Shown here piece by piece: positions 4,776-33,490 of a DNA stretch of 64,000 nucleotides. The DNA lies in NCBI RefSeq assembly GCF_017302275.1, contig NZ_JAFLDR010000010.1, positions 62,001 through 126,000 on the forward strand. The letters are read 5' to 3'. Below the pieces are notes generated by a model that ran no database searches, had not been told where the DNA came from, and saw only the letters and a list, made by a program, of their open reading frames with translations. The position numbers and the translations under genes were made by a program. Source of the stretch: Sulfuritalea sp. (GTDB lineage Bacteria; Pseudomonadota; Gammaproteobacteria; Burkholderiales; Rhodocyclaceae). Position 1 is the first letter of the stretch. Every line of letters starts with the position of its first letter.

Positions 4776-5618
4776 ATGCAAGTCGTGCTCATCAGCGGCC
4801 TTTCCGGGTCCGGCAAGTCCATCGCGCTCAACGTGCTGGAGGACGCCGGTTATTACTGCGTCGACAACCTGCCGGCGCCGCTGCTTTCGGAACTGGTATC
4901 CCACCTGCGGATGGAGGGGCATAAACTCGTTGCGGTGGCGGTGGACATGCGTGGCGGGTCGAGCATCGCGGCGTTGCCGCCGCAGCTGCGCACGCTCGAA
5001 GCGGACGGCATTACGCTGCGCTTCCTGTTCCTCGACGCGCGTGACGATGTGCTGATACAGCGTTTCTCGGAAACCCGCCGGCGCCACCCGCTCGCCGGCG
5101 ACGACGTGACGCTGGAGGAGGCCATCGCCCGCGAACGCGAGGCGCTGGAGATGCTGGCTTCGCTCGGCCACCACATCGACACCAGCGACCTGCGGCCGAA
5201 TGCGCTGCGCGCCAGCATCAAGGATTTCGCCGTGCTCGACGAGCGCAGCGGGCTGATCCTGCTGTTCGAATCCTTCGGCTTCAAGAACGGCATTCCGCTC
5301 GACGCCGACCTGGTGTTCGATGTGCGCTGCCTGCCCAATCCGCATTACGATCCGGCGCTGCGCCCGCTCACCGGGCGCGATGCCGAGGTGATCCGCTTCC
5401 TCGCCGCGCAGCCGGAAGTGATGCGCATGGAATCCGACCTGCGCCGCTTCATCGGCGACTGGTTGCCGGCTTACGTGCGCGACAACCGGTCCTACCTGAC
5501 GGTCGGCATCGGCTGCACCGGCGGCCAGCACCGCTCCGTATACCTGGCGGAAAGGCTGGCCGCGCATTTCGGCGAGTCGGCGCGCGTGCTGGTGCGGCAC
5601 CGCAGCCTGATCGAATGA
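4776..5618 (+). CDS. rapZ: RNase adapter protein RapZ
   Basis: A 280-residue P-loop protein. In enterobacteria RapZ binds the small RNA GlmZ and delivers it to RNase E, so controlling GlmS synthesis. The Walker A motif GLSGSGKS is at residues 8-15, DNLPAPLL follows at about 31, and the C-terminal domain has the signature TVGIGCTGGQHRSVYLAE. Length and both domains match the family. It overlaps the next gene by four bases (ATGA). In many proteobacteria rapZ sits with PTS genes (hprK, ptsN), but none are visible here. glmS is about 52 kb away in the same window; whether the GlmZ circuit exists in this organism is not shown by the sequence. Confidence 0.95.
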   Translation: MQVVLISGLSGSGKSIALNVLEDAGYYCVDNLPAPLLSELVSHLRMEGHKLVAVAVDMRGGSSIAALPPQLRTLEADGITLRFLFLDARDDVLIQRFSETRRRHPLAGDDVTLEEAIAREREALEMLASLGHHIDTSDLRPNALRASIKDFAVLDERSGLILLFESFGFKNGIPLDADLVFDVRCLPNPHYDPALRPLTGRDAEVIRFLAAQPEVMRMESDLRRFIGDWLPAYVRDNRSYLTVGIGCTGGQHRSVYLAERLAAHFGESARVLVRHRSLIE

Positions 5619-6061
5619 ACCCGCAGATCCCGGACGGACTGCGCGAACTGCTGGCGCTGGCGGCGGGCGCGGGCCAGGCTCCCTGGCGCACGCTGCTCAG
5701 GCCCGGTGACTGGCTGCTGCTGTTGTGCTGCGCCGCGCTGGTCGCGGCGTCCTATCCGCTGCTGTGGCGCGGCGGGGTGGCGGACCGCGCCATCGTCAAG
5801 CGCGACGGGCGACTGGTCACCGAACTGGCGCTCAACGTGGCGCGCAAGTACGAGGTCACCGGCGCCATCGGCACCACCGTGATCGAAGTGCAGCCGGGCC
5901 GCGCCCGCGTGCTGTCCGACCCAGGGCCGCGCCAGTACTGCGTTCAGCAGGGCTGGCTGTCGCGCGCCAACGCGGTGGCGATCTGCGCGCCGAACCACGT
6001 CACGCTGCAGCTCGCCGGTCGCGGCGGGGCGCATGCCGATTATGACACCATCAACTATTGA
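5615..6061 (+). CDS. Membrane-anchored NusG domain II protein
   Basis: A 148-residue protein starting inside the rapZ stop codon. The first 30 residues are soluble, then LLLLCCAALVAASYPLLW forms one transmembrane helix. The outer region carries the small beta-barrel called NusG domain II, with ALNVARKYEVTGAIGTTVIE and a pair of Cys (QYCVQQGW, AICAPNH). Such proteins usually lie directly before a Gx transporter gene, as here, and often near flavin or quinone-linked functions. Its biochemical role is unknown. The next gene starts within its last ten codons. Confidence 0.82.
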   Translation: MNPQIPDGLRELLALAAGAGQAPWRTLLRPGDWLLLLCCAALVAASYPLLWRGGVADRAIVKRDGRLVTELALNVARKYEVTGAIGTTVIEVQPGRARVLSDPGPRQYCVQQGWLSRANAVAICAPNHVTLQLAGRGGAHADYDTINY

Positions 6062-6575
6062 GCTGCCGGTCACGGCCGACGATTACCGCATCGCGCGCTA
6101 CGCGGCGGCGGCGATCGCGCTGTCGGTGGCGGAAACCGCCCTGCCCAGCCCGCTGCCCGGCATCAAGCCGGGGCTGGCCAACATCATCGTGCTGGTGGTG
6201 CTGGCGCGCTACGGTTGGCGCGACGCGGCCTGGGTCAGCCTGCTGCGCGTGGTTGCCGGCAGCCTGGTGGTCGGACAGTTCCTCGCGCCGGGCTTCTTCC
6301 TTGCGCTGGCCGGCGCCCTGTGCAGCCTGGCTGTGCTGGCGGCGGCGCAGCACCTGCCGCCGCGCGTTTTCGGCCCGGTATCGGCCAGCGTGCTGGCGGC
6401 CTTCGCCCATATCGGCGGCCAGTTGCTGCTGGCGCGCGCCTGGCTGGTGCCCCATGACGGCGTGTTCTACCTGCTGCCGCTGTTCGCCACGGCCGCGCTA
6501 TTGTTCGGCAGCATCAACGGCCTGGTCGCAGCGCGCCTGCTGGCCGCACCCTCCACGGAGTCGCCGACGCCATGA
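6033..6575 (+). CDS. Gx transporter family protein (HepI-like membrane protein)
   Basis: A 180-residue integral membrane protein with five or six hydrophobic segments. The opening RYAAAAIALSVAETALPSPL and the segment GIKPGLANIIVLVVLARYGW are typical of the family once named heptaprenyl diphosphate synthase component I and now grouped as Gx/ECF-like transporters. The start is ambiguous between ATG 6033 and ATG 6042. Either overlaps the NusG-domain-II gene by 20 to 29 bases, implying translational coupling. The substrate is unknown. The name HepI is historical and does not mean it makes prenyl diphosphate. Confidence 0.83.
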   Translation: MPIMTPSTIELPVTADDYRIARYAAAAIALSVAETALPSPLPGIKPGLANIIVLVVLARYGWRDAAWVSLLRVVAGSLVVGQFLAPGFFLALAGALCSLAVLAAAQHLPPRVFGPVSASVLAAFAHIGGQLLLARAWLVPHDGVFYLLPLFATAALLFGSINGLVAARLLAAPSTESPTP

Positions 6576-7177
6576 TCGTTCCTCTGTTTCCCCTCGGTTC
6601 GGTGCTGTTTCCCGGCGGACGGCTGCCGCTGCGCATCTTCGAACAGCGCTACATGGACATGGCGAAGGCCTGCTTCAAGGAGTCCGGATCCTTCGGCGTC
6701 TGCCTGATCGCCGCCGGCGAGGAGGTCGCCCGGCCCGGCGAGAAGCCGGCCGAGCCACACTCGGTAGGCACGCTGGCGCATATCGCCGACTGGGACATGC
6801 AGCAACTGGGAGTGCTCGACATCGTCGCCCAGGGCGGCGAGCGCTTTCGCCTGAAACGCCATTGGGCAGAGGCATCGGGCCTGTTGTGCGGCGAGGTCGA
6901 GCTGATCGAGTCGCCGCCGGTGCTGCCGGTGCCGGGCTCCTATGCGCGCCTGGTGCCGCTGTTGCGCGCCATCATCGACGACCTCGGTGCCGCCAGCGGC
7001 GCGCCGGCCGCACCGCACCGCTTCTTCGACGCCGGCTGGCTGGGCATGCGTTATGCCGAAGTGCTGCCGATTCCGCTCGTCGCCCGGCAGAAGCTGCTGG
7101 AAATCGAGGACAGCATCGACCGGCTGGAAATCATCTATCGCTTCCTCGAAGGCAAGGGCCTGTTGCCGGAAGCTTGA
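6572..7177 (+). CDS. LON peptidase substrate-binding (N) domain protein
   Basis: A 201-residue stand-alone version of the N-terminal substrate-binding domain of Lon protease, without ATPase or protease parts. It begins MIVPLFPLGSVLFPGGRLPL and continues RIFEQRYMDM, the standard pattern (lFPL..vLfPg..lpl.iFE.rY). The function of these single-domain proteins is unproven; a role in recognising damaged or unfolded proteins is only suggested by homology. It overlaps the upstream gene by four bases (ATGA), closing the rapZ operon. Its 3' end overlaps the convergent mutY gene by 43 bases. Confidence 0.9.
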   Translation: MIVPLFPLGSVLFPGGRLPLRIFEQRYMDMAKACFKESGSFGVCLIAAGEEVARPGEKPAEPHSVGTLAHIADWDMQQLGVLDIVAQGGERFRLKRHWAEASGLLCGEVELIESPPVLPVPGSYARLVPLLRAIIDDLGAASGAPAAPHRFFDAGWLGMRYAEVLPIPLVARQKLLEIEDSIDRLEIIYRFLEGKGLLPEA

Positions 7178-8211
7178 AGTCCTTCCAGGATGCGGCGCAC
7201 CGGCGCCGGCACGCCGGCCGTGGCGAGTTCCTCGTCGTTTAGCCAGCACAGGCCGGGTTCCATCGCCGCTGATGAAGGCTCGACGTCCAGCAGCAGCGGC
7301 GCGATGCGCAGGCGAAAATGGCTGAAGGCGTGGTCAAGAGTCGGCGCCGGCGCGACGGCGATGACACGGCAGGCGAAGCGTCGCGTGGCCCACTGGCGGG
7401 CATCGGCTGCTTCCGGCAGTTCCGGCAGGGACAGCAGGCCGCCCCAGATACCCGCCGGCGGACGGGTTTCGAGCAGGATGCGGCCCTCGTGGCGCAGCAC
7501 CAGCAGCGTCGCCTCGCGTCGCGGGATCGCCTTGCGCGGCTTCGGCTCAGGCAACTCGCCGGTGCGGCCGGAGGCGAGCGCGACGCAGATGTCATCGAGC
7601 GGGCAGGATTCGCAGCGCGGCTTGCCGCGCTTGCAGACGGTGGCGCCAAGGTCCATCTGCGCCTGGTTGTAGGTGCCGCCGTCGCGCTTCGGCATCAACT
7701 CGCCGGCCAGTCGCCACAGGCGCTTTTCCACAACCGAGTTGCCAGCAAAGCCCTCGACGCCAAAGGCGCGGCACAGCACGCGTTTGACGTTGCCGTCGAG
7801 GATGGGCGCCTGCGCGCCGAAACAAAAGGTGGCGATGGAATTGGCCGTGGAGCGGCCGATGCCGGGCAGGCCGGCAATCACATCGGGGTGGTGGGGGAAT
7901 TCGCCGCCATGCTCGCGCATCACCGCCAGCGCGCAGGCGTGCAGGTTGCGCGCGCGGGCGTAGTAGCCCAGCCCGCTCCACAGCGCCATGACGTCGTCGA
8001 CCGGCGCGGCGGCGAGGTCGGCGAGCCGCGGAAAGTGCCGCAGAAAGCGCTCGTAGTAAGGCACCACGGTCGCCACCTGGGTCTGCTGCAGCATGATTTC
8101 CGACAGCCAGACGCGATAGGGATCGGTGGTGTTCTGCCACGGCATGTCGTGGCGGCCGTGGCGCTTGTGCCAGCGGATCAGACGCGCAGCAAAGCTGCGC
8201 GCCTGAGGCAA
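7135..8211 (-). CDS. mutY: A/G-specific adenine DNA glycosylase MutY
   Basis: Base-excision repair enzyme that removes adenine mispaired with 8-oxoguanine. A helix-hairpin-helix core contains SEIMLQQTQV with the catalytic Glu, LPGIGRSTANSIA (hairpin) and LDGNVKRVL with the catalytic Asp. The 4Fe-4S loop is intact: Cys-X6-Cys-X2-Cys-X5-Cys in CKRGKPRCESCPLDDIC. A C-terminal NUDIX-like domain follows. The frame is open upstream to 8328 through repeat DNA. I chose TTG 8211, where LPQARSFAARLI aligns with the N-terminus of E. coli MutY and gives 358 residues against about 350. An upstream ATG at 8280 lies in the repeat and would add 23 unlike residues. Confidence 0.93.
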   Translation of the reverse strand: MPQARSFAARLIRWHKRHGRHDMPWQNTTDPYRVWLSEIMLQQTQVATVVPYYERFLRHFPRLADLAAAPVDDVMALWSGLGYYARARNLHACALAVMREHGGEFPHHPDVIAGLPGIGRSTANSIATFCFGAQAPILDGNVKRVLCRAFGVEGFAGNSVVEKRLWRLAGELMPKRDGGTYNQAQMDLGATVCKRGKPRCESCPLDDICVALASGRTGELPEPKPRKAIPRREATLLVLRHEGRILLETRPPAGIWGGLLSLPELPEAADARQWATRRFACRVIAVAPAPTLDHAFSHFRLRIAPLLLDVEPSSAAMEPGLCWLNDEELATAGVPAPVRRILEGLQASGNRPLPSRKR

Positions 8212-8247
8212 TGAACCGGCCTTCCCCCCGGCCCCCTCCCCGTGGGA

Positions 8248-8281
8248 GGGGGTGACTACGGTTCGCCGCTGGCGCGGCTCC
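8248..8281. repeat. Dispersed repeat, family A copy 2
   Basis: This segment, GGGGGTGACTACGG then TTCGCCGCTGGCGCGGCTCC, matches the copy at 1936-1968 apart from a few substitutions and short gaps. It is also preceded by pairing arms (CCCCTCCCC / GGGAGGGG, 8233-8251). It lies between purT and mutY and creates misleading start codons upstream of mutY. Confidence 0.6.
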
Positions 8282-8324
8282 ATGGTCTTGACGGCGTTCC
8301 CTTGGGGCGGCCCGGCGGGGATGC

Positions 8325-9560
8325 TCACCCCTTGACCGGCTTCACGCGACTCGCGGCGAGTTTCGCCCGCTGCCGCGCTTCGTCGGTGGTATCGGCATTC
8401 GCCACCGCCACGCCCATGCGCCGCTTGACGAAGCTCTCCGGCTTGCCGAACAGGCGCAAGTCGGATTCGGGCACCTGCAGGGCTTCGGCCGCGCCTTCGA
8501 AGGCAATGCCCTTTTCCTCCATGCCGCCGTAGATCACCGCCGAGGCGCCGGGCCGGCGCAGGCTGGTGTCCACCGGCAGGCCGAGGATCGCGCGCGCATG
8601 CAATTCGAATTCGGAAAGGCGCTGCGTGGCCAGTGTTACCAGGCCCGTGTCGTGCGGGCGCGGGCTGACTTCGGAGAACCAGACCTGGTCGCCCTTGACG
8701 AACAGCTCGACGCCGAAGATGCCGCGTCCGCCCAGGTTGGAGGTCACCGCACGCGCCATGTCGCGCGACTTCTGCAATGCGACCGGCGTCATCGCCATCG
8801 GCTGCCAGCTCTCGACGTAATCGCCATTCACCTGCACATGGCCGATCGGTTCGCAGAAGAAGGTTTCGACCGCGCCGCTGGCGCCGACGGCGCGCACCGT
8901 GAGCTGGGTGATTTCGTAGTCGAAATCGATGAAGCCCTCGACGATGATGCGACCCGCGCCGACGCGGCCGGCGGCCTGCGAGTAGTCCCAGGCCTGCTGC
9001 ACCTCGGCGGCGGATCTCACCAGCGATTGGCCCTTGCCCGAGGAGGACATCACCGGCTTGATCACGCAGGGATAACCAATGCCCGGTTTGTCAGACCCGT
9101 CGATGGCGGCCTGCAGCTCGGCCAGCGAGTCGGCGAACTTGTAGGGCGACGTCGCCAGCCCGAGTTCCTCGGCGGCCAGGCGCCGGATGCCCTCGCGGTT
9201 CATGGTCAGTTGCGCCGCGCGCGCGGTGGGAATGAACTCGGGGAAATGCCCGGCCACGCCGTCGCGTTCCATCTCGACCAGCGCGGCGGTGGCGATGGCC
9301 TCGATCTCGGGCACCACCAGCGCCGGCTTCTCCTTTTCGATCAGCGCGCGTAGCGCGGCGCCGTCGGTCATGTTCACCACGTGGCTGCGGTGCGCCACCT
9401 GCATGCCGGGAGCATCGGGGTAGCGATCGACGCCTATGACTTCGCAGCCCAGGCGCTGCAATGCGATAATGACCTCCTTGCCCAGTTCGCCGCAGCCGAG
9501 CAGCATGACCCGCGTGGCGGAAGGGGAAAGCGGAGTGCCGATACGTTTGGCGATGCCCAT
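8325..9560 (-). CDS. purT: Formate-dependent phosphoribosylglycinamide formyltransferase PurT
   Basis: Purine synthesis enzyme that makes formyl-GAR from GAR, formate and ATP, the folate-independent alternative to PurN. The 411-residue ATP-grasp protein starts at ATG 9560. Visible landmarks are [20 protein letters not shown] near residue 20, [21 protein letters not shown] (ATP-binding loop) and [19 protein letters not shown]. Its length matches the family (about 392 in E. coli). It diverges from the flavin reductase gene across 59 bases. mutY lies downstream on the same strand, separated by a repeat. Confidence 0.95.
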
Positions 9561-9619
9561 CAGGTGCTCCAGAAAAATTACAAGTCGCCGATTTTAGAGC
9601 CAGTTGACGGTCATCCCCA

Positions 9620-10111
<492 letters not shown>

Positions 10112-10127
10112 TCCGGAGCCGTTGGCG

Positions 10128-10613
10128 TCACGGCTGCGCCTGGTAGGCCGCGCGGATCGCCTCGATGCGCTGCCGGTTCACGCCGAAATCCTTGCGTCCG
10201 ATACGGCTCGCGCTGCGCAGTTCGATCACGCCGGACGCCGGATTGACCCAGAACTCAAGGTCGTCCACGAACTTCAGCCAGCGCGTCTGCGCCAGGGCGT
10301 AAAGGTAGTCGGGCCGCTGCTCGACGACTTCGATGCCCGGCATGCCCCGCAGCACGCCTTCCAATACCCGCAATGACGGTGCCGCGCCGCCGGCCTTCAA
10401 CGGCAGCGGCTTGATGTCCGCGTAGTCACGCTGCGGATGGCCGGGATGGAGCGCGGCCTGGCTGGAAACGCTGTTGGGCGTCGGCGACGGAGCTTTCAGG
10501 CGCGACTGGCTGACGCCGAGGTCGGCCGGACGGCTTCCACTGAGCGCGCCGAACTGGATCGCGATGGTGGCGACCACGAGCAGGGCCAGGAGAATGTAGA
10601 GGGTGGCTTTCAT
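10128..10613 (-). CDS. DUF1499 domain-containing membrane-anchored protein
   Basis: A 161-residue protein starting at ATG 10613 with an N-terminal hydrophobic helix (ATLYILLALLVVATIAIQFG), either a signal anchor or an uncleaved signal. The rest is a DUF1499 domain, with PLPLKAGGAAPS, FWVNPASGVIELRSASRIGR and DFGVNRQRIEAIR. The function of DUF1499 is unknown. The frame continues upstream through a copy of repeat family B, which would add an unrelated segment, so the longer start was refused. Confidence 0.85.
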   Translation of the reverse strand: MKATLYILLALLVVATIAIQFGALSGSRPADLGVSQSRLKAPSPTPNSVSSQAALHPGHPQRDYADIKPLPLKAGGAAPSLRVLEGVLRGMPGIEVVEQRPDYLYALAQTRWLKFVDDLEFWVNPASGVIELRSASRIGRKDFGVNRQRIEAIRAAYQAQP

Positions 10614-10642
10614 TTGCACTGGGCTCGCATTGGTGCTTTCAG

Positions 10643-10675
10643 AAGTCGGCGCCCCACAGGGACTTCCTTTGGTCG
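10643..10675. repeat. Dispersed repeat, family B copy 2
   Basis: These 33 bases equal 4693-4725 except for one C-to-T change at 10670. The copy lies 30 bases upstream of the DUF1499 start codon, in the otherwise featureless gap 10614-10813. Confidence 0.75.
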
Positions 10676-10813
10676 CTGGCAATACTGTGTGAATCAGGTA
10701 CCAGCTTTCGTTGGCGGCAAAAATCTGCTGTTGGCAACAGCTTACAGGCATCCGGCAAGCTGATCCAAGAAGCCGTCCGGTGTCACTAAAGCCGCTGACC
10801 GAACAACCCCCCC

Positions 10814-10844
10814 AAAAAAAAGCCCCACCAAATTCAGGTGGGGC
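10814..10844 (-). terminator. Intrinsic terminator of the small gene at 10896-11171
   Basis: Read on the minus strand this is GCCCCACC, a seven-base loop, GGTGGGGC, then eight T. The stem is 10822-10829 with 10837-10844, and the T run is the A tract 10814-10821. It lies 52 bases after the stop codon of the small minus-strand gene and is the clearest Rho-independent terminator in the window. Confidence 0.9.
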
Positions 10845-10895
10845 GAGCGGCCTGAATGTGCAGGCCGAGGAGGAGACGGGGGTGGAACGGTCAGG

Positions 10896-11171
10896 TCAGT
10901 GCGCCTGCGGGTTCCAGCTGAAGAGGCTGCGCAGCGACAGGCTGGCGCGGGTGGCTAGCGAGGGTCCGATGGCGCGGCGGCCGGGCTTGGCGTTCTGCGG
11001 GTTCCAGGAGAATAGCGGACGCAGGGCCTCGCCGGCGTCGGCCAGGGATCCGGCCAGCAGCCGGACATAGACCACGAGGCGGGCGGTCATCAGCCCCTGG
11101 ATGCGGCGCATTTCCTCGGCGCGCATTGCCCGGGCTTGTCTGAGGATCTCGTTGGTATCGTAGGTTTCCAT
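10896..11171 (-). CDS. Small hypothetical protein with duplicated LFSWNPQ motif
   Basis: A 91-residue protein from ATG 11171 (METYDTNEILRQAR), preceded by GGAAG. An amphipathic helical region (residues 5-45, rich in Arg, Ala, Glu) is followed by two copies of the motif LRxLFSWNPQ. One is in the middle (LRPLFSWNPQ) and one at the extreme C-terminus (LRSLFSWNPQ). I do not recognise the family; the N-terminal DxNEILRQARAMRAEE resembles short alphaproteobacterial proteins of unknown function. It has its own strong terminator and diverges from a LysR-type gene, so it may be that regulator's target. No signal peptide is seen. Confidence 0.7.
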   Translation of the reverse strand: METYDTNEILRQARAMRAEEMRRIQGLMTARLVVYVRLLAGSLADAGEALRPLFSWNPQNAKPGRRAIGPSLATRASLSLRSLFSWNPQAH

Positions 11172-27997: not shown

Positions 27998-28136
27998 CGG
28001 GAAAAGGGCGCAGGCGGGAGTCGGCGTCGGGCGGCCGTCGAGTATCGTCGCAAGCGGCTTGTGCGGTCAATCGACTGATGGCGGCGCGCTGCGGGCGATG
28101 GGTGGCTGGCAGCCCTTCCCGTCACGTCGCGTTGCC

Positions 28137-28174
28137 ATATCTTCCCGATTGGAGGACAATATCTTCCCAATTGG
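28137..28174. promoter_or_regulatory. Direct repeat pair, candidate operator of the AAA/DUF4143 operon
   Basis: ATATCTTCCCGATTGG (28137-28152) recurs as ATATCTTCCCAATTGG (28159-28174), with one difference and exactly 22 bases from start to start, which is two helical turns. The pair lies 35 bases before ATG 28209, where a promoter would be expected. Tandem sites on the same helix face suggest cooperative binding of a regulator that is not identifiable here. Confidence 0.55.
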
Positions 28175-28208
28175 CAATGACGCCCATCCCGTTTGGACAC
28201 CCAGTGCG

Positions 28209-29483
28209 ATGACTGCCCAGGAGGCTTCCCGATCCCTCTATCCGCGCTTCCTCGCGCCGCGCATCGAGGAGGCGCTTGCCGATACCCCCGTGGTCCTGAT
28301 CAGCGGGCCGCGCCAATCCGGGAAAACCACGCTGGCCAGGCAGTTGGCGGGGGCGCGGACATTCCTGACGCTCGACCATGAGCCGACCCTGCGGGCCGCT
28401 ATCGACGATCCCGTCGGCCTGGTGCGCGGTTTCGACGCGCTCGTCATCGACGAGATCCAGCGTGCCCCGCGATTGCTGCTGGCGATCAAGCAGGCCGTCG
28501 ATGCCGATCGCCGGCCCGGACGATTCCTGCTGACCGGCTCGGCAAACCTGATGACCTTGCCGATGGTGGCGGACTCGCTGGCCGGGCGGATCGAAAACCA
28601 GGTCCTGCTGCCACTGTCCCAATCGGAAATGGTGGCGCCTGAAAGCCGCGCCGTGCAGGACTGGATCGACCGGCTGTTCCGGGGCGAAATTCCCCATCCC
28701 GCCGCCGGTCGCGGCGAAATCGTCGATCGCGTGCTGCGCGGCGGCTACCCCGAAGCCCTCGCGCGCGCCACCCCAAGGCGACGCCAGGCCTGGGCGCGCC
28801 AGTACCTGGACATGCTGATCCAGCGCGACATCCGCGATCTCGCCCGCCTGGACAAACTGGAACACCTGCCCCGCCTGCTGGCGATGCTGGCCCAGGTATC
28901 CGGACAGTTGTGCAATTTCTCCCAACTTGGGGGCCAGATCGGGCTCGACCACAAGACGATAGGCAAGTATCTCGCGGTCTTCGAGCAGATGTACCTGCTG
29001 CAACGCGTTCCCGCCTGGGCGGGCACGACCCTGGGTCGGCTGGTCAGGACGCCCAAACTCCAATTCATCGACTCGGGATTGCTGGCCGCGCTGCTGGAAA
29101 TCGGCGACATCTCGCCGGTCCAGTCGCGGAGCCGTTTCGGGCCCTTGCTGGAAAGCTTCGTGTTCGGCGAACTGCTCAAATTCTGCACCTGGTCCGAACG
29201 CCGCCACGCCATGTACTACTACCGCGACAAGAGCCAGCGCGAAGTCGATTTCGTCATCGAGAACACGCCGGGCGACATCGTCGGCATCGAGGTCAAGTCG
29301 GCGGCAACGGTAGGCGGCAGCGATTTCTCCGGCTTGCGGCAACTTGCCTTGCTCAGCGGACAGCGATTCCGTGCCGGCCTGGTGCTCTACGACGGCGACC
29401 TCACCTTGCCGTTCGGCCCCGGCCTGTGGGCCGTGCCCCTGAGCACCCTGTGGCAGGCCGAATTCCGGGAGGCAAGCGCATGA
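28209..29483 (+). CDS. AAA ATPase with DUF4143 domain
   Basis: A 424-residue ATP-binding protein. The Walker A motif GPRQSGKTT is at residues 33-41, Walker B DALVIDEIQRAP is near 79-90, and sensor LLTGSANLMTLP is near 112. A winged-helix segment (NFSQLGGQIGLDHKTIGKYL) follows. The C-terminal DUF4143 nuclease-like part has EVDFVIENTPGDIVGIEVKS, which resembles a PD-(D/E)xK core. These proteins are widespread and poorly understood. It overlaps the next gene by four bases, so the two are a unit. A long upstream open frame exists, but ATG 28209 starts just before the conserved domain and after the direct repeats. Confidence 0.88.
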   Translation: MTAQEASRSLYPRFLAPRIEEALADTPVVLISGPRQSGKTTLARQLAGARTFLTLDHEPTLRAAIDDPVGLVRGFDALVIDEIQRAPRLLLAIKQAVDADRRPGRFLLTGSANLMTLPMVADSLAGRIENQVLLPLSQSEMVAPESRAVQDWIDRLFRGEIPHPAAGRGEIVDRVLRGGYPEALARATPRRRQAWARQYLDMLIQRDIRDLARLDKLEHLPRLLAMLAQVSGQLCNFSQLGGQIGLDHKTIGKYLAVFEQMYLLQRVPAWAGTTLGRLVRTPKLQFIDSGLLAALLEIGDISPVQSRSRFGPLLESFVFGELLKFCTWSERRHAMYYYRDKSQREVDFVIENTPGDIVGIEVKSAATVGGSDFSGLRQLALLSGQRFRAGLVLYDGDLTLPFGPGLWAVPLSTLWQAEFREASA

Positions 29484-30046
29484 ACTACACCGAAATCCTT
29501 GCCACGCTGGGCCAGGCCTCGGCCTTCGACCTCTTCCGCCTGCGCGCCGCCATTGACCGCGTACTCGACCAGCCGGGCTGGATGGCCGCCGTGCAGGCCC
29601 GGCTGGCGCCAGGCGCGAACATCGAGTACTTCGACGCGCAGGCCAACCGCGCCGTCAAGGGCCAGTTGCTGGAGATGCGTCGCAAGCAGGCGGTGGTGCT
29701 CGATCCGGAAACCCGCCGGCGCTGGCTGATCTCCTATGCCGCGATCAACCTCGACGGCGCTGACGTCGACATCCGTGAACAGGTGCCGCATGGCCTGAGC
29801 CGCCAGTCCGTCGCCGTCGGCGACGTGGTCGGTTTTGTCGATCGCGAGCACCGGCAACGCGGCGGCCGGATCCTGCGCCTCAACGACAAGACCGTCACCC
29901 TGCAGGTCGGCCCCCAGCGATGGCGAGTCGCCTACGGCCTGCTGCATCGCGTGGTCGAGTCCGGCGCCGGCGACGGCGATCTGGCGGAACTCGGTGTCGC
30001 CGATGCGCGGGCGGAAATCGTGATCGAACCGGAGGATCGCGGGTAG
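29480..30046 (+). CDS. Hypothetical protein with two similar beta-rich segments, coupled to the AAA/DUF4143 gene
   Basis: A 188-residue soluble protein starting inside the ATPase stop (ATGA). The first 40 residues are helical. Two similar segments of about 45 residues follow. The first has IEYFDAQANRAVKGQLLEMR, VVLDPETRRRWLISYAAIN; the second has VVGFVDREHRQRGGRILRLN, VTLQVGPQRWRVAYGLLHRV. The shared pattern (hydrophobic strand, FD/VDR, G, strand, W-R/L-x-x-Y-x-x-[IL]) suggests tandem SH3- or Tudor-like barrels, which is my inference. I do not recognise a named family. It is presumably a partner of the ATPase. Confidence 0.72.
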   Translation: MNYTEILATLGQASAFDLFRLRAAIDRVLDQPGWMAAVQARLAPGANIEYFDAQANRAVKGQLLEMRRKQAVVLDPETRRRWLISYAAINLDGADVDIREQVPHGLSRQSVAVGDVVGFVDREHRQRGGRILRLNDKTVTLQVGPQRWRVAYGLLHRVVESGAGDGDLAELGVADARAEIVIEPEDRG

Positions 30047-30396
30047 GGTTTGCGCATCCCGGTCGGCTGCGATGCGGGGAGGGTTGGGCGACGGGGAGCG
30101 GCGCTCGTCAGGCCGCAAATCGCCGTGTTGCCAGCGCCGACTTGTTGTTGATCGGCGGTTTGGGCCAAGAGCGGGCATAGCGACAAGGGGCAATTTGGTG
30201 GCGCCAATGCCCGGTGACCGATCCGAGACCCGCCACTTGCTCCCGCTACCGCTCGGCCTGAGGACTGAAACGCCACCCCAGAAGTGAGGCCAGCGTGGGC
30301 AGCCCGGTCTTAAGCAGGGTAATGACCTCGAAAATGTACTTGCACCTAGGGCGAGCATTGGTCAGAATGTCCCGACTTATTCCCCGCGAGAGCGCC
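30047..30396. other. Left flank of the restriction-modification island, no gene supported
   Basis: This stretch before the methyltransferase has no convincing coding frame. The 13-mer GCCAGCGCCGACT is at 30130-30142, also found in the same orientation at 33475-33487 on the other side of the island. The sequence GGTTTGGGCCAAGAGCGGGC near 30160 resembles degenerate intergenic DNA. Possible earlier starts of the methyltransferase (GTG 30295, ATG 30322, ATG 30334, ATG 30367) lie in the last 100 bases. Confidence 0.5.
30130..30142. repeat. Dispersed 13-mer, left side of RM island
   Basis: GCCAGCGCCGACT occurs exactly here and at 21626-21638, 33475-33487 and 38001-38013, all on the plus strand. 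One-mismatch copies are at 18429-18441 (plus) and, in reverse complement, at 7339-7351, 25010-25022 and 58524-58536. Confidence 0.7.
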
Positions 30397-31638
30397 ATGC
30401 TAGCCGAGTCAGCCGAAACCGTTTATTTCCTTGAGCAAGCCGTTGCACGTTACAACGTCGGGCGAGTAGCCGAAATGCTGGGCAAAGCCCCGAAAACAAT
30501 TACCCGGTGGCGCACTGGGAAAACTCCGCCGCCGTCCTATTTGGCGCCGGCCCTGCAGAAAATTCTCGACTTTGGCCGGGTTACCCCGAGTGGAGGTGAT
30601 TTCACTTTCATCGACCTGTTCGCCGGTATCGGCGGTATCCGGCTTGGATTCCAGTCTCACGGGGGGCGCTGTGTGTTCACATCAGAATGGAATACGTGGT
30701 CGCAAAAAACTTATGTCGAGAACTTCCGCGACGCGCATGAGATTGTTGGTGACATTGTTCCATGCGAGGCCAAGGACATTCCCGATCACGACGTTCTACT
30801 CGCCGGATTCCCTTGTCAGCCGTTCAGCATTGCTGGCGTCAGCAAGAAAAATGCACTGGGCCGTCCGCACGGGTTTGAATGCACAACACAAGGTACCTTG
30901 TTCTTTGATGTAGCGCGGATCATTGCCGAAAAACGCCCCAAAGCCTTCCTGCTCGAAAGCAACAAGCGACTTGTCTCGCACGACAAGGGAAACACGTTCA
31001 GAGTGATCTTGCACGCTCTGCGCGAAGAACTCGGCTATGACGTGCACTACCGTGTCATCGATGCCCGCCATTTTGTACCCCAGCATCGCGAGCGCATTCT
31101 CATCGTTGGTTTCCGCGAGCCGACCGGATTCAGTTGGGACGCTCTGCAATTTCCGGAATCCGGGCCGGTCTTGTCAAGCATTCTGCATCCGGAAAATGGA
31201 AGTGAATTACCCCAGCCTCCATACACGCATGGTGCAAAGGCCACCGTCCATGACAAGTACGTCCTGACTGACAAGCTCTGGGCCTACTTGCAAGCCTATG
31301 CCGAAAAACACCGCGCCGCCGGCAACGGATTCGGCTTCGGTTTGGTGACGCCCGAGCAAACGGCGCGCACCCTGTCTGCGCGCTATTACAAAGACGGTTC
31401 GGAAATTCTCGTGAGCCGTGGCAAGAACAAGAACCCGCGCCGGCTGACGCCGCGTGAGTGCGCACGACTGATGGGTTTCCCGGATGATTTTCGTATTCCT
31501 GTTTCGGACACGCAAGCCTATCGGCAATTTGGTGATGCGTCCGTGCCTTCTCTTATCGATGGAGTTGCAAGAGCAATGAAGCCGCACGTGATGATCGCCA
31601 TTTCGACATCACCAAGGATGAACGCACATGGCAACTAG
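30397..31638 (+). CDS. DNA (cytosine-5) methyltransferase, M.EcoRII/Dcm type, with atypical motifs VI and X
   Basis: A 413-residue C5-cytosine methyltransferase. Residues 12-45 look like a helix-turn-helix (RYNVGRVAEMLGKAPKTITR), as in the N-terminal extensions of M.EcoRII and Dcm. Motif I is FIDLFAGIGGIRLGFQ, motif IV GFPCQPFSIAGVSKKN holds the catalytic Cys, and LTPRECARLMGFP with RIPVSDTQAYRQFG is strongly Dcm-like. This suggests CCWGG recognition (inference). Two motifs are odd: VI reads LLESNKRLVSHDKG instead of ENVK, and X reads FGDASVPS instead of FGNSVVVP. The start is uncertain; ATG 30397 keeps the complete HTH. It overlaps the HNH gene by 11 bases. DNA is of lower GC than the surroundings. 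Confidence 0.9.
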   Translation: MLAESAETVYFLEQAVARYNVGRVAEMLGKAPKTITRWRTGKTPPPSYLAPALQKILDFGRVTPSGGDFTFIDLFAGIGGIRLGFQSHGGRCVFTSEWNTWSQKTYVENFRDAHEIVGDIVPCEAKDIPDHDVLLAGFPCQPFSIAGVSKKNALGRPHGFECTTQGTLFFDVARIIAEKRPKAFLLESNKRLVSHDKGNTFRVILHALREELGYDVHYRVIDARHFVPQHRERILIVGFREPTGFSWDALQFPESGPVLSSILHPENGSELPQPPYTHGAKATVHDKYVLTDKLWAYLQAYAEKHRAAGNGFGFGLVTPEQTARTLSARYYKDGSEILVSRGKNKNPRRLTPRECARLMGFPDDFRIPVSDTQAYRQFGDASVPSLIDGVARAMKPHVMIAISTSPRMNAHGN

Positions 31639-32407
31639 AGCCGGTTGGTTACGCGAACAGTTGCTGGTTGCATTTCATCTTTATTGCCGGATGCCATTCG
31701 GCAAGATGCATCGTGCCAATCCTGACGTAATTCGCTACGCCGGTTTGATTGGGCGTACGCCATCCGCTCTAGCGATGAAACTCACAAATATCGCCAGTCT
31801 CGATCCGGCCATTACCAGTACGGGCAGGAAAGGGCTTGAGGGAGCATCTTCGGCAGATCGAGCGATGTGGGAGGAGATGCAGACTGATTGGGAGCAGTTT
31901 GCGTTGGCTGTACAGCAAGCCGTAGAACGGGTTGAAGGGCAAGCTATCGAGCTCCCAATAGCTGAGGATGTTCACTTGGGCGCAGCGGAAAACTATGAGG
32001 GTACCGAAAGGTTTGCCACGACCAAGACCCGGGTGGGCCAGGCATTTTTCCGCGATGCTGTATTGAGCGCCTATGACTATTGCTGCTGCATCAGCGGGCT
32101 AGGTGTACCGCAGCTTCTGGTAGCCAGTCACATTGTTCCGTGGCGCAGTGACGCCAAGAACCGGTTGAATCCAAGAAACGGACTGTGCTTATCCATGCTG
32201 CATGACAAGGCGTTCGATCTTGGTTTGATTTGCATTGCCGACAATTTCACCGTACAAATTTCCCCAAAGCTCATGCGGCTTGACGATGAGTTTCTAACTT
32301 CCTCAATCATCAGATATAGCGGACAGCGGTTGCGTACCCCCGAGAAATTCATACCTGACCGTGAATTTCTGGCATTCCACCGTGACAACGTGTTTGTGAG
32401 AACGTAA
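31628..32407 (+). CDS. HNH endonuclease, putative restriction enzyme
   Basis: A 259-residue protein. The N-terminal half is helical (WLREQLLVAFHLYCRMPFGK) and of the type found in HNH restriction-like proteins. The C-terminal half carries the nuclease: YDYCCCISGLG, LLVASHIVPWRSDAKNRLNP and NGLCLSMLHDKAFD. These give the His-Asn-His pattern with the ASHI-W signature. It lies within a methyltransferase operon, overlapping that gene by 11 bases and sharing its TAA/ATG with the next gene. It may be the cleaving enzyme or a second, modification-dependent one. GC is low: 27 of 60 bases in 32221-32280. Confidence 0.85.
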   Translation: MATRAGWLREQLLVAFHLYCRMPFGKMHRANPDVIRYAGLIGRTPSALAMKLTNIASLDPAITSTGRKGLEGASSADRAMWEEMQTDWEQFALAVQQAVERVEGQAIELPIAEDVHLGAAENYEGTERFATTKTRVGQAFFRDAVLSAYDYCCCISGLGVPQLLVASHIVPWRSDAKNRLNPRNGLCLSMLHDKAFDLGLICIADNFTVQISPKLMRLDDEFLTSSIIRYSGQRLRTPEKFIPDREFLAFHRDNVFVRT

Positions 32408-32721
32408 TGAATATCGTCTTTGAGTACCTATACCGAGACGCTGGCAACTACAAGAATTGGGAGAGTGTAGTGTTCTCCAATCCTCGTGCTCATGACATAG
32501 ATACAGTGAGGGCGTCAGTTAGGCAGGCCATGTCTAATGCCGAGTTCTTTGATGCACCTGCTGCTCGTTTGCCAGATTTGCATTTTCCAGTGTTCTGCGC
32601 GGAGCTAGATGTGCCTCTACATGAGTTTTTTGATGTCAGCGACACTGATCAAGCTCCAGACGATTTGTTTGGCAGAAGCATTGACCAACTCTTAGTCGAG
32701 ATTGGAAATTTCGGTCGATAG
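32407..32721 (+). CDS. Small acidic hypothetical protein of the RM operon
   Basis: A 104-residue protein whose ATG uses the last base of the HNH stop codon. It begins NIVFEYLYRDAGNYKNWESV and is rich in Asp, Phe and Pro, with PDLHFPVFCAELDVPLHEFF in the middle and RSIDQLLVEIGNFGR at the end. No signal peptide, membrane segment or known motif is visible. I do not recognise the family. Tight coupling to both nuclease genes suggests it is a subunit, immunity factor or regulator of the system. Codon use and low GC match its neighbours, so it came with the island. Confidence 0.7.
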   Translation: MNIVFEYLYRDAGNYKNWESVVFSNPRAHDIDTVRASVRQAMSNAEFFDAPAARLPDLHFPVFCAELDVPLHEFFDVSDTDQAPDDLFGRSIDQLLVEIGNFGR

Positions 32722-32745
32722 TGCAATTTGCATCCCGATCCGGCA

Positions 32746-33192
32746 ATGAAGGTCGCGCAAAGCGCATTCCAGCGCCGCAAGTCGAGAGCCGGAAATGCCT
32801 TGGAAAACCACCTTGAGGCCATCTTCAAGTCACATGGAGTGACCTATTCACGTACTGCCGTGACCGAGCAAAAACTCAAGCCGGATTTCATTTTTCCTGA
32901 CATCAGGCACTATCACGACCAATCCTTTCCTTCGACCCGACTCACCATGCTGGCATCAAAGACGACCAGCAAGGACCGGTGGCGACAAATACTCAACGAA
33001 GCGGCGCGAATTCCTTTAAAACACTTGGTCACGCTGGAACCTAGCATCAGCGAAAATCAGACCGCTGAAATGCAATCTGAGCGGGTGCAACTCGTGATTC
33101 CCGCACCTCTGCACGATACCTACACAGCAGCACAGCGGAGCTGGCTGCTTGATATTTCTGGTTTTGTCGATCTGGTAAAGGGACGTCAATAG
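32746..33192 (+). CDS. Stand-alone EcoRII-type restriction endonuclease catalytic domain
   Basis: A 148-residue protein matching the C-terminal nuclease domain of EcoRII (family EcoRII-C): FQRRKSRAGNALENHLEAIF, LKPDFIFPDIRHYHD, MLASKTTSKDRWRQILNEAA and IPLKHLVTL. The PD-(D/E)xK-like residues are Asp47, Lys72 and Lys76; the 25- and 4-residue spacings are those I recall for EcoRII Asp299, Lys324, Lys328. The regulatory N-terminal DNA-binding domain of EcoRII is missing, and no remnant is seen in the adjacent 104-residue gene. The start is ATG 32746; TTG 32728 would add six residues. The expected target is CCWGG, protected by the upstream methyltransferase. Confidence 0.88.
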   Translation: MKVAQSAFQRRKSRAGNALENHLEAIFKSHGVTYSRTAVTEQKLKPDFIFPDIRHYHDQSFPSTRLTMLASKTTSKDRWRQILNEAARIPLKHLVTLEPSISENQTAEMQSERVQLVIPAPLHDTYTAAQRSWLLDISGFVDLVKGRQ

Positions 33193-33490
33193 GATGGCTC
33201 TACCTTCCAATCCGCCACCGCATAAGTCGGCGTTTCTACAGCCTTTTGCCGACATTGCGGCGAAAGTTTCGGGACTCTGCACGTAGCGTCTGTTTTCCCT
33301 TATCGTCATTTTCTTGGCCGCACAGCAGGCGCGTTGCTGCTTGGTACTGAACGTCTATTTTGGCCGAGGTCAGGATTGCCACCCCGGAAAATCGAACGAC
33401 GGCTTTCCGATCAGTCTGCCACCAACGCAGATATTTTTGTCATCAGGCCGTTTAGGGCACCAAGCCGCCGTTCCGCCAGCGCCGACTCTT
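33193..33490. other. Right flank of the RM island, no gene supported
   Basis: This 298-base gap separates the EcoRII-type gene from the stop codon of the RND permease. No frame with recognisable protein content is seen. It carries the exact 13-mer GCCAGCGCCGACT at 33475-33487, three bases before the RND stop codon, and a partial AAGTCGGCG at 33213. GC rises again towards the right. Confidence 0.5.
33475..33487. repeat. Dispersed 13-mer, right side of RM island
   Basis: This is an exact copy of the 13-mer at 30130-30142 in the same orientation, so the two could act as or derive from direct repeats at the ends of a 3.3-kb insertion. Confidence 0.7.

Follow-up and report, generated by a model that had tools for sequence, protein, structure and literature searches.

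A putative PcaII-type HNH nuclease in EcoRII-type operons beside methyltransferases with an altered cofactor motif

The four-gene locus of Sulfuritalea

The window analyzed here is a 64,000-nucleotide stretch of DNA from Sulfuritalea sp. (assembly GCF_017302275.1, contig NZ_JAFLDR010000010.1, positions 62,001 to 126,000), and its positions 30397–33192 hold a cytosine-C5 DNA methyltransferase (MTase) gene, an HNH nuclease gene, a gene for a small protein and a part of an EcoRII-type endonuclease gene. Operons of the EcoRII type may have been taken over by a type IV nuclease repeatedly. A preliminary description of the DNA had recognized four overlapping or closely spaced genes of low GC within high-GC DNA, and both observations hold: the open reading frames (ORFs) lie where it placed them, and GC, taken in 200-bp steps over approximately 30400–33400, is 0.47–0.58 versus ~0.66 in the surroundings (27 of the 60 nucleotides in 32221–32280 are G or C). 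The start of the HNH ORF overlaps the end of the MTase ORF. The EcoRII-C ORF starts at TTG 32728 or ATG 32746, ends at 33192 and is in frame with the small gene, from which a single TAG separates it. The features are as follows.

30397..31638, + strand: MTase gene, encoding a Dcm/M.EcoRII-like C5-MTase with an altered cofactor motif (Pfam DNA_methylase, 3e-78; alternative GTG start at 30295)
30955..30963, + strand: MTase motif VI, ESN here versus ENV in 23/23 comparison MTases
31531..31551, + strand: MTase motif X, GDAS(VPS) here versus GN[SA]V in 23/23 comparison MTases
31628..32407, + strand: HNH nuclease gene, putatively of the PcaII family (Pfam HNH_2, 3e-11; structural model; promoter feature in relatives)
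32407..32721, + strand: partner gene for a 104-residue protein of type A, the F.YLYRDAGN.K family (family alignments; no Pfam match)
32728..33192, + strand: EcoRII-type endonuclease gene, a likely 3' remnant (EcoRII-C, 1e-59; aligns to the C-terminal part of full-length homologues only)
28013..33465, no strand: stretch missing from the same-genus genome G018 (flank comparison)

The HNH nuclease and its recurrence

We used an alignment of the HNH protein to scan 84,980 species genomes and kept the 80 best matches out of 569 or more confirmed relatives, a selection biased to close ones. Together with loci from other genomes and plasmids, this gave 118 distinct HNH loci, the window included, after exclusion of identical proteins and of L110, where the HNH gene is broken; matches covering solely the C-terminal half of the HNH protein were left out. 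Six of the 117 loci other than the window have <1000 nt downstream of the HNH gene and four have <700 nt upstream, and partners there may have been missed. The family is widespread and mostly solitary, with relatives (E ≤ 1e-40, own genome counted) in 25/349 genomes of the order, 6/369 of the class and 22/398 of the phylum. Relatives are also found in 21/324 genomes of the family of genome G1016. Directly upstream, 23 of the 118 loci have a whole or partial Dcm-like MTase gene; in 13 of these MTase and HNH share one ORF (11 full length, a short piece in L143, and L307, truncated where its contig stops). Downstream, 12 loci have an EcoRII gene or what is left of one. That other genomes keep the four genes together in the same order is borne out by eight of the 118 loci (the window, L076, L079, L088, L104, L144, L151 and L154), the MTase of L151 being a fragment. 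The other option raised earlier, that the HNH and small genes are independent insertions, is right in part: the two genes also occur together without MTase or EcoRII, and phylogeny points to more than one entry, but the gene set recurs. In L064 (G096:C14:46000-64000, ~5241–11131) two further ORFs upstream of the full HNH gene match its N-terminus alone and a C-terminal HNH piece is also listed, a pattern resembling duplicated gene parts.

The model of the window HNH protein (m1432a211b907; predicted local distance difference test score, pLDDT, 86) consists of a three-helix N-terminal domain (residues 9–56) and an HNH_2 domain (153–203), and its best PDB matches in Foldseek are VcaM4I (1e-5) and TagI (3e-3). 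The protein also matches the PADLOC HNH profile PDLC04132 (HNH type II restriction-modification, RM) over its length (E 2.6e-122, residues 1–258). The paper on PcaRCII (PcaII) from Pectobacterium carotovorum, which places its sequence in CP045097, describes an N-terminus like the hTRF1 three-helix bundle, an HNH domain like those of VcaM4I and TagI, a solitary gene in an MTase-free neighborhood, and restriction of DNA methylated at CCNGG/CCWGG that depends on 5-methylcytosine (5mC) (Birkholz et al. 2022, PMC8989522). According to the same paper, pcaIIR is silenced through a 5'-CCTGG-3' overlapping the extended -10 element of its promoter, and in the PcaI/PcaII pair it is a working Dcm-like MTase that silences the PcaRCII nuclease promoter (PMC8989522). 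Because the two-domain build of the window HNH and the promoter element in its relatives both match the published description of PcaRCII, the window HNH very probably belongs to the PcaII family. By this kinship it would cut 5mC-modified CCWGG DNA, which fits an earlier suggestion that one enzyme of the locus acts on modified DNA.

The promoter element is most apparent in relatives from the family of G1016, which we take as Enterobacteriaceae because the HNH of G1016 groups with that of the Serratia locus L147. Here CCTGGCATAGT lies upstream of the HNH start in 11 of the 16 loci checked (20 loci retrieved; in L345 and L347 the ORF begins far upstream and the test was off target), and it is also found upstream in L147 and in L304. 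Two of eight tested genomes of this family also carry a canonical Dcm-like MTase, a combination that the silencing model allows. Over the main set, a CCWGG site overlaps a -10-like element upstream of the HNH or fusion start in 9/115 HNH loci (L147, L304 and seven outside the G1016/Serratia group: L106, L145, L155, L112, L131, L148 and L141), against a mean of 1.5 in shuffled sequences and 0/500 shuffles as high, a pattern that was picked after the CCTGGCATAGT result from the family of G1016 was known. This suggests that several lineages have evolved control of this HNH by methylation.

Most genomes with an unfused HNH have no match to a Dcm-like MTase: 7/8 at E ≤ 1e-10 and 16/18 at E ≤ 1e-20, among them G309, which keeps an MTase fragment. 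Identity between fused and unfused HNHs reaches 92% (L140; 88–92% for L315 and L316). Those of L139, L296 and L297 are 88–92% identical to the unfused HNHs of genomes G213 and G301 (L315, L316), which have no C5-MTase match at E ≤ 1e-20, N4C and N6A methylases not having been searched for. Since these two genomes carry such close unfused relatives, a C5 methylase seems dispensable for self-protection from the HNH.

Small partner genes behind the HNH fall into three types: type A, that of the window, in 14 of the 118 loci, type B in 13, the unrelated LHED type (type C) in 21 and B with C in one, while none was found in 69. They occur in 19/28 loci with an MTase, EcoRII or Vsr gene versus 30/90 others (Fisher p 0.002), in line with the earlier view of the small protein as coupled to the system. 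The 104-residue protein itself yields a model of pLDDT 90 with no PDB or viral fold match at E ≤ 0.001, and searches of Pfam, NCBIfam, PADLOC and PHROGs assign it to no family at the cutoffs applied. Against viral contigs it finds no relative by single sequence and four weak ones by alignment; one plasmid record matches. One type B and one LHED partner that were checked have no Pfam, PADLOC or PHROGs family either. Proteins of the LHED family (LHED.FYE.F.PYRHP...DIWGG.GLETFG, ~130 residues) stand directly after the HNH or after the first partner in L297, L306, L120, L150 and others, and L306 and L060 have both small partner types. In L296 a different open frame of ~170 residues follows the MTase-HNH fusion where a known partner is expected, before a frameshifted EcoRII remnant.

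Altered methyltransferases and truncated EcoRII genes

The classification of the MTase as Dcm/M.EcoRII-like stands at the level of the family, but the standard motifs are not all present. It is the sole match of its kind in its own genome at E ≤ 1e-10. We compared the HNH-linked MTases with 23 others, of which 13 are EcoRII-linked, two come from genomes with an unlinked HNH and eight from plasmids; none of their loci holds this HNH. Over the 104 columns invariant in these 23 proteins the window MTase has four changes, all in motifs VI and X. N380 and V382 of motif X, which we take to be part of the S-adenosylmethionine (AdoMet) site, are changed in 14/14 HNH-linked or fused MTases versus 0/23 Dcm/EcoRII-type MTases without this HNH. 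N380 is replaced by D, Q, E or R and V382 by A, S or T, with G379 also changed in 12/14, and the invariant columns changed in more than one HNH-linked MTase fall solely within 377–382. The extra changes are N188S and V189N in the window (ENV to ESN) and PCQ to LCQ in L079. Left out of the 14 were MTase fragments <300 residues and the partial MTases of L110, L143 and L307, all three of which have N380 changed. A single clade of HNH-linked MTases is rejected (approximately unbiased test, p-AU 1.3e-4; L143 and L151 are mostly gaps in the tree), while a clade of the window MTase with those of L051 and L052 is not rejected (p 0.14). Since the HNH-linked MTases do not form one clade, and the replacing residues also differ, the motif X change probably arose at least twice. 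A Dcm-like MTase on a Thauera plasmid, accompanied by Vsr and a different HNH enzyme, has a canonical motif X; in this one case, therefore, proximity to an HNH gene is not by itself accompanied by the change.

In close pairs of MTase-HNH fusions the MTase part shows a dN of 0.015–0.07 and a dS of 0.34–0.62, that is, purifying selection, and the genomes that carry fusions have no MTase match besides the fused one (6/6). Under MTases that are 88–96% identical the HNH parts differ by 20–32% (L139/L156, L139/L144, L144/L296 and L144/L156), and the partners behind these fusions are of different types, C in L139 and L156 and B in L144. Cassettes of HNH and small gene thus seem to have been swapped behind a conserved, motif-X-altered MTase.

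The EcoRII-C match of the preliminary description is confirmed, but not as a whole catalytic domain: it sets in only at residue 69 of EcoRII chain 3hqg (222 residues), and the window protein aligns from ~243–260 to ~410 of full-length homologues of ~410 residues, the N-terminal effector part being gone. Among the 12 EcoRII genes downstream of an HNH, 11 are 5'-truncated, and the single full-length one (L128) lacks RRKSRAG, reading RRTRWI for RRKSRA. Similarity to EcoRII starts at about residue 144 in L088, 159 in L079, 165–172 in L151, 229 in L076, 245–249 in L144, L154 and L104, 243–260 in the window, 288 in L084 and 309–319 in L098, and where a small gene is present it begins at most ~85 nt from the stop of that gene or overlaps it. 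We take KPD to be catalytic and RRKSRAG to recognize DNA. Frameshifts are found in L076, L088 and L296, KPD has become KPG in L088, RRKSRAG is lost in L084, L098 and L128, and L098 is also without KPD. The L104 piece has no start codon in approximately its first 50 codons, that of L154 is cut at both ends, and intact ORFs remain in the window, L079, L144 and L151. Outside HNH loci 17/20 EcoRII genes are ≥389 residues long, versus 1/12 behind the HNH. A scan of the order found an EcoRII-C match in 10/399 genomes: the own genome, the HNH locus of G343, five genomes with open frames of 410–476 residues, G281 (283 residues) and, as fragments, G172 and G390; the 20 comparison genes include G281 and four of these five. 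The window EcoRII-C is thus very likely the remnant 3' part of an EcoRII gene.

A single origin of the EcoRII remnants is likewise rejected (p-AU 5.5e-6, with warnings of long branches and unsettled bootstraps). By path and identity (71%) the window remnant is nearest to EcoRII of Enterobacter and Aeromonas plasmids, at a fork that is unsupported; L151 falls with L242 and L244, L104, L144 and L154 fall with L245, and the rest fall with one another. Because the endonuclease and MTase trees each reject a single origin, the HNH would have entered EcoRII-type operons more than once, and they reject a single HNH insertion into one ancestral EcoRII locus.

In the genome G018 the flanking MFS and RND genes stand 21 nt apart, without the stretch 28013–33465; their spacing is ~1.1 kb in G008 and ~2.4 kb in G014. 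The stretch also carries a DUF4143/AAA gene (28029–29483) and an ORF at 29486–30046, neither of which we count into the system. The DUF4143/AAA_14 ATPase gene has normal GC though it lies within the missing stretch, and is perhaps a separate insertion.

A proposed takeover of an EcoRII-type operon and its alternatives

We favor, at a probability of about 60%, the reading that a modification-dependent HNH nuclease of the PcaII type took over an EcoRII-type (CCWGG) operon, in which the endonuclease decayed and the MTase was kept without methylating, possibly as a reader of CCWGG. The HNH gene and its small partner would have settled between the MTase and endonuclease genes. An active CCWGG methylase beside a nuclease for 5mC-modified CCWGG would mean host death unless the nuclease were silenced, and loss of the cofactor residues of motif X (in the window of ENV too), after which CmCWGG would no longer be made, would remove this conflict. 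Without methylation an active EcoRII would in turn kill the host, and this would account for its decay where this HNH sits: the endonuclease gene has lost its 5' part and would be a pseudogene already or in the making. That the HNH-linked MTases no longer methylate is probable on the strength of the altered residues. The retention of the MTase, frequently as a fusion and under selection, suggests that it does something other than methylate, and we infer binding of CCWGG as the simplest such role; the retained protein may still bind CCWGG as a specificity domain while the HNH cuts incoming 5mC-modified DNA. Such a reader role is conceivable, though we put it below even odds, and a role as a reader of the modified base itself is more doubtful. 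Motif X shapes the AdoMet pocket, and the methyl donor site adjoins C5 of the flipped cytosine. We only tentatively propose that, on two or more occasions, a C5-MTase came to act as reader for a modification-dependent nuclease, its emptied pocket making room for the inner C of CCWGG when this bears a 5-methyl, a hydroxymethyl or a bulkier group. The MTase would then hand the modified site to the HNH, and an RM operon would have been turned into its opposite, reading the mark and cutting marked DNA.

Several observations weigh against the takeover. PCQ, ENV and QxRxR are all intact in 12/14 HNH-linked MTases, eukaryotic DNMT3 enzymes methylate DNA despite a different motif X, and the 14 MTases are not independent, six being 88–97% alike. 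The genomes with unfused HNHs could possibly be protected by N4C or N6A methylation. CCWGG anywhere within 150 bp upstream of the HNH is not enriched (23/115 versus 26.2 expected), and there is no CCWGG in 30040–30396 upstream of the window MTase. In the window the EcoRII-C ORF is uninterrupted and retains KPD and KTTxKDRW, and its divergence from L051 of 24/16/63% at codon positions 1/2/3 gives no sign of long neutral decay; it was therefore truncated recently or is still constrained, and neutral decay is not shown by the codon positions. Short or split EcoRII genes without this HNH make up 3/20 of the comparison genes (L006, split; L244, 278 residues; L384, 200 residues), to which the two fragments in G172 and G390 add. 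Truncation is thus much commoner behind the HNH, yet not confined to its loci. In L384 (4815–5417), a Sphingomonas plasmid, the 200-residue EcoRII-C protein has intact motifs and stands beside a canonical Dcm-like MTase and Vsr.

The intact motifs would also suit a type II RM pair in which the MTase still methylates CCWGG and the HNH cuts the unmethylated site, EcoRII having been replaced by an isoschizomer of another fold. Fusion and adjacency of the two genes, purifying selection on close fused pairs and membership of this HNH in the PADLOC profile named HNH agree with such a pair, and the Thauera plasmid, with its canonical MTase, Vsr and other HNH enzyme, indicates that the design probably exists. 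Yet motif X is changed in every one of the 14 MTases here and canonical in that of Thauera, HNHs 88–92% identical sit unfused in genomes without a C5-MTase match, and the kinship of the HNH is with a 5mC-dependent enzyme, all of which makes the pair unlikely. The changed cofactor motif also speaks against a normal EcoRII methylation-restriction pair. Somewhat less likely still is that the HNH works alone or with its partner, the window MTase and EcoRII-C both being decaying remnants without a role. The change of ENV to ESN that the window MTase adds to that of motif X, PCQ to LCQ in L079 and the MTase fragments beside the HNH in L053, L077, L085, L086, L151, L308 and L319 would be expected of decay, but the window MTase is full length with its invariant columns altered in motifs VI and X alone, and purifying selection acts on fused MTase domains at other loci. 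The earlier proposal of two working nucleases, an active EcoRII-C for unmodified and the HNH for modified CCWGG side by side, we consider very improbable. It could draw on the constrained window ORF with its motifs, on the intact ORFs of L079, L144 and L151 and on the stand-alone EcoRII-C of L384, but the truncation points are spread over 175 residues, frameshifts or losses of conserved motifs affect several of the truncated genes, the domain is shorter than the crystallized EcoRII chain, and an active CCWGG cutter requires a working CCWGG methylase.

With PcaRCII, as published, the locus shares the three-helix domain joined to a VcaM4I/TagI-like HNH, the predominance of loci without MTase and, in Enterobacterales relatives, CCTGG in an extended -10-like element; but the window HNH lies inside an EcoRII-type operon with a small partner gene and an adjacent (in relatives also fused) MTase of altered motif X, whereas PcaRCII itself has no MTase nearby and is silenced by a functional Dcm-like MTase. 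The EcoRII type IIE RM system (CCWGG) has the same MTase family and the endonuclease of which EcoRII-C remains, with intact relatives on Enterobacter and Aeromonas plasmids (L051, L052), but the window has lost the N-terminal effector and part of the catalytic domain, has changed motifs VI and X and holds the HNH and small genes in between. The type IV enzymes VcaM4I (EVE-HNH) and TagI (SRA-HNH) have a related HNH fold, and modification dependence is expected here as there; their readers are EVE and SRA, in contrast to a small helical domain and, in the 11 full-length fusions, a C5-MTase domain. The Dcm-Vsr-HNH locus of Thauera aminoaromatica pTha01 likewise has a Dcm-like MTase followed by an HNH endonuclease, but a different one (333 residues; ~30% identity in the HNH part only), with a canonical motif X. 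The N-terminal half of this endonuclease (L379:4255-5256) resembles by eye the EcoRII effector (B3-like) domain. Among the open-licence PMC papers listed, judged by titles and the starts of abstracts, none deals with MTase-derived readers, and no such paper was found for RM_type_HNH.

RM systems and methyl-dependent nucleases are natural enemies, and the published PcaI/PcaII pair resolves the conflict by silencing the nuclease promoter. The loci described here suggest another outcome: the nuclease enters the RM operon, the endonuclease is lost, and the MTase keeps its DNA-binding parts minus the cofactor motif. If the reader role is true, modified-base readers would derive from MTases as well as from SRA, EVE and similar domains, and automated annotation that calls such MTase-HNH loci type II RM would be mistaken, skewing predictions of host methylation and phage defense.

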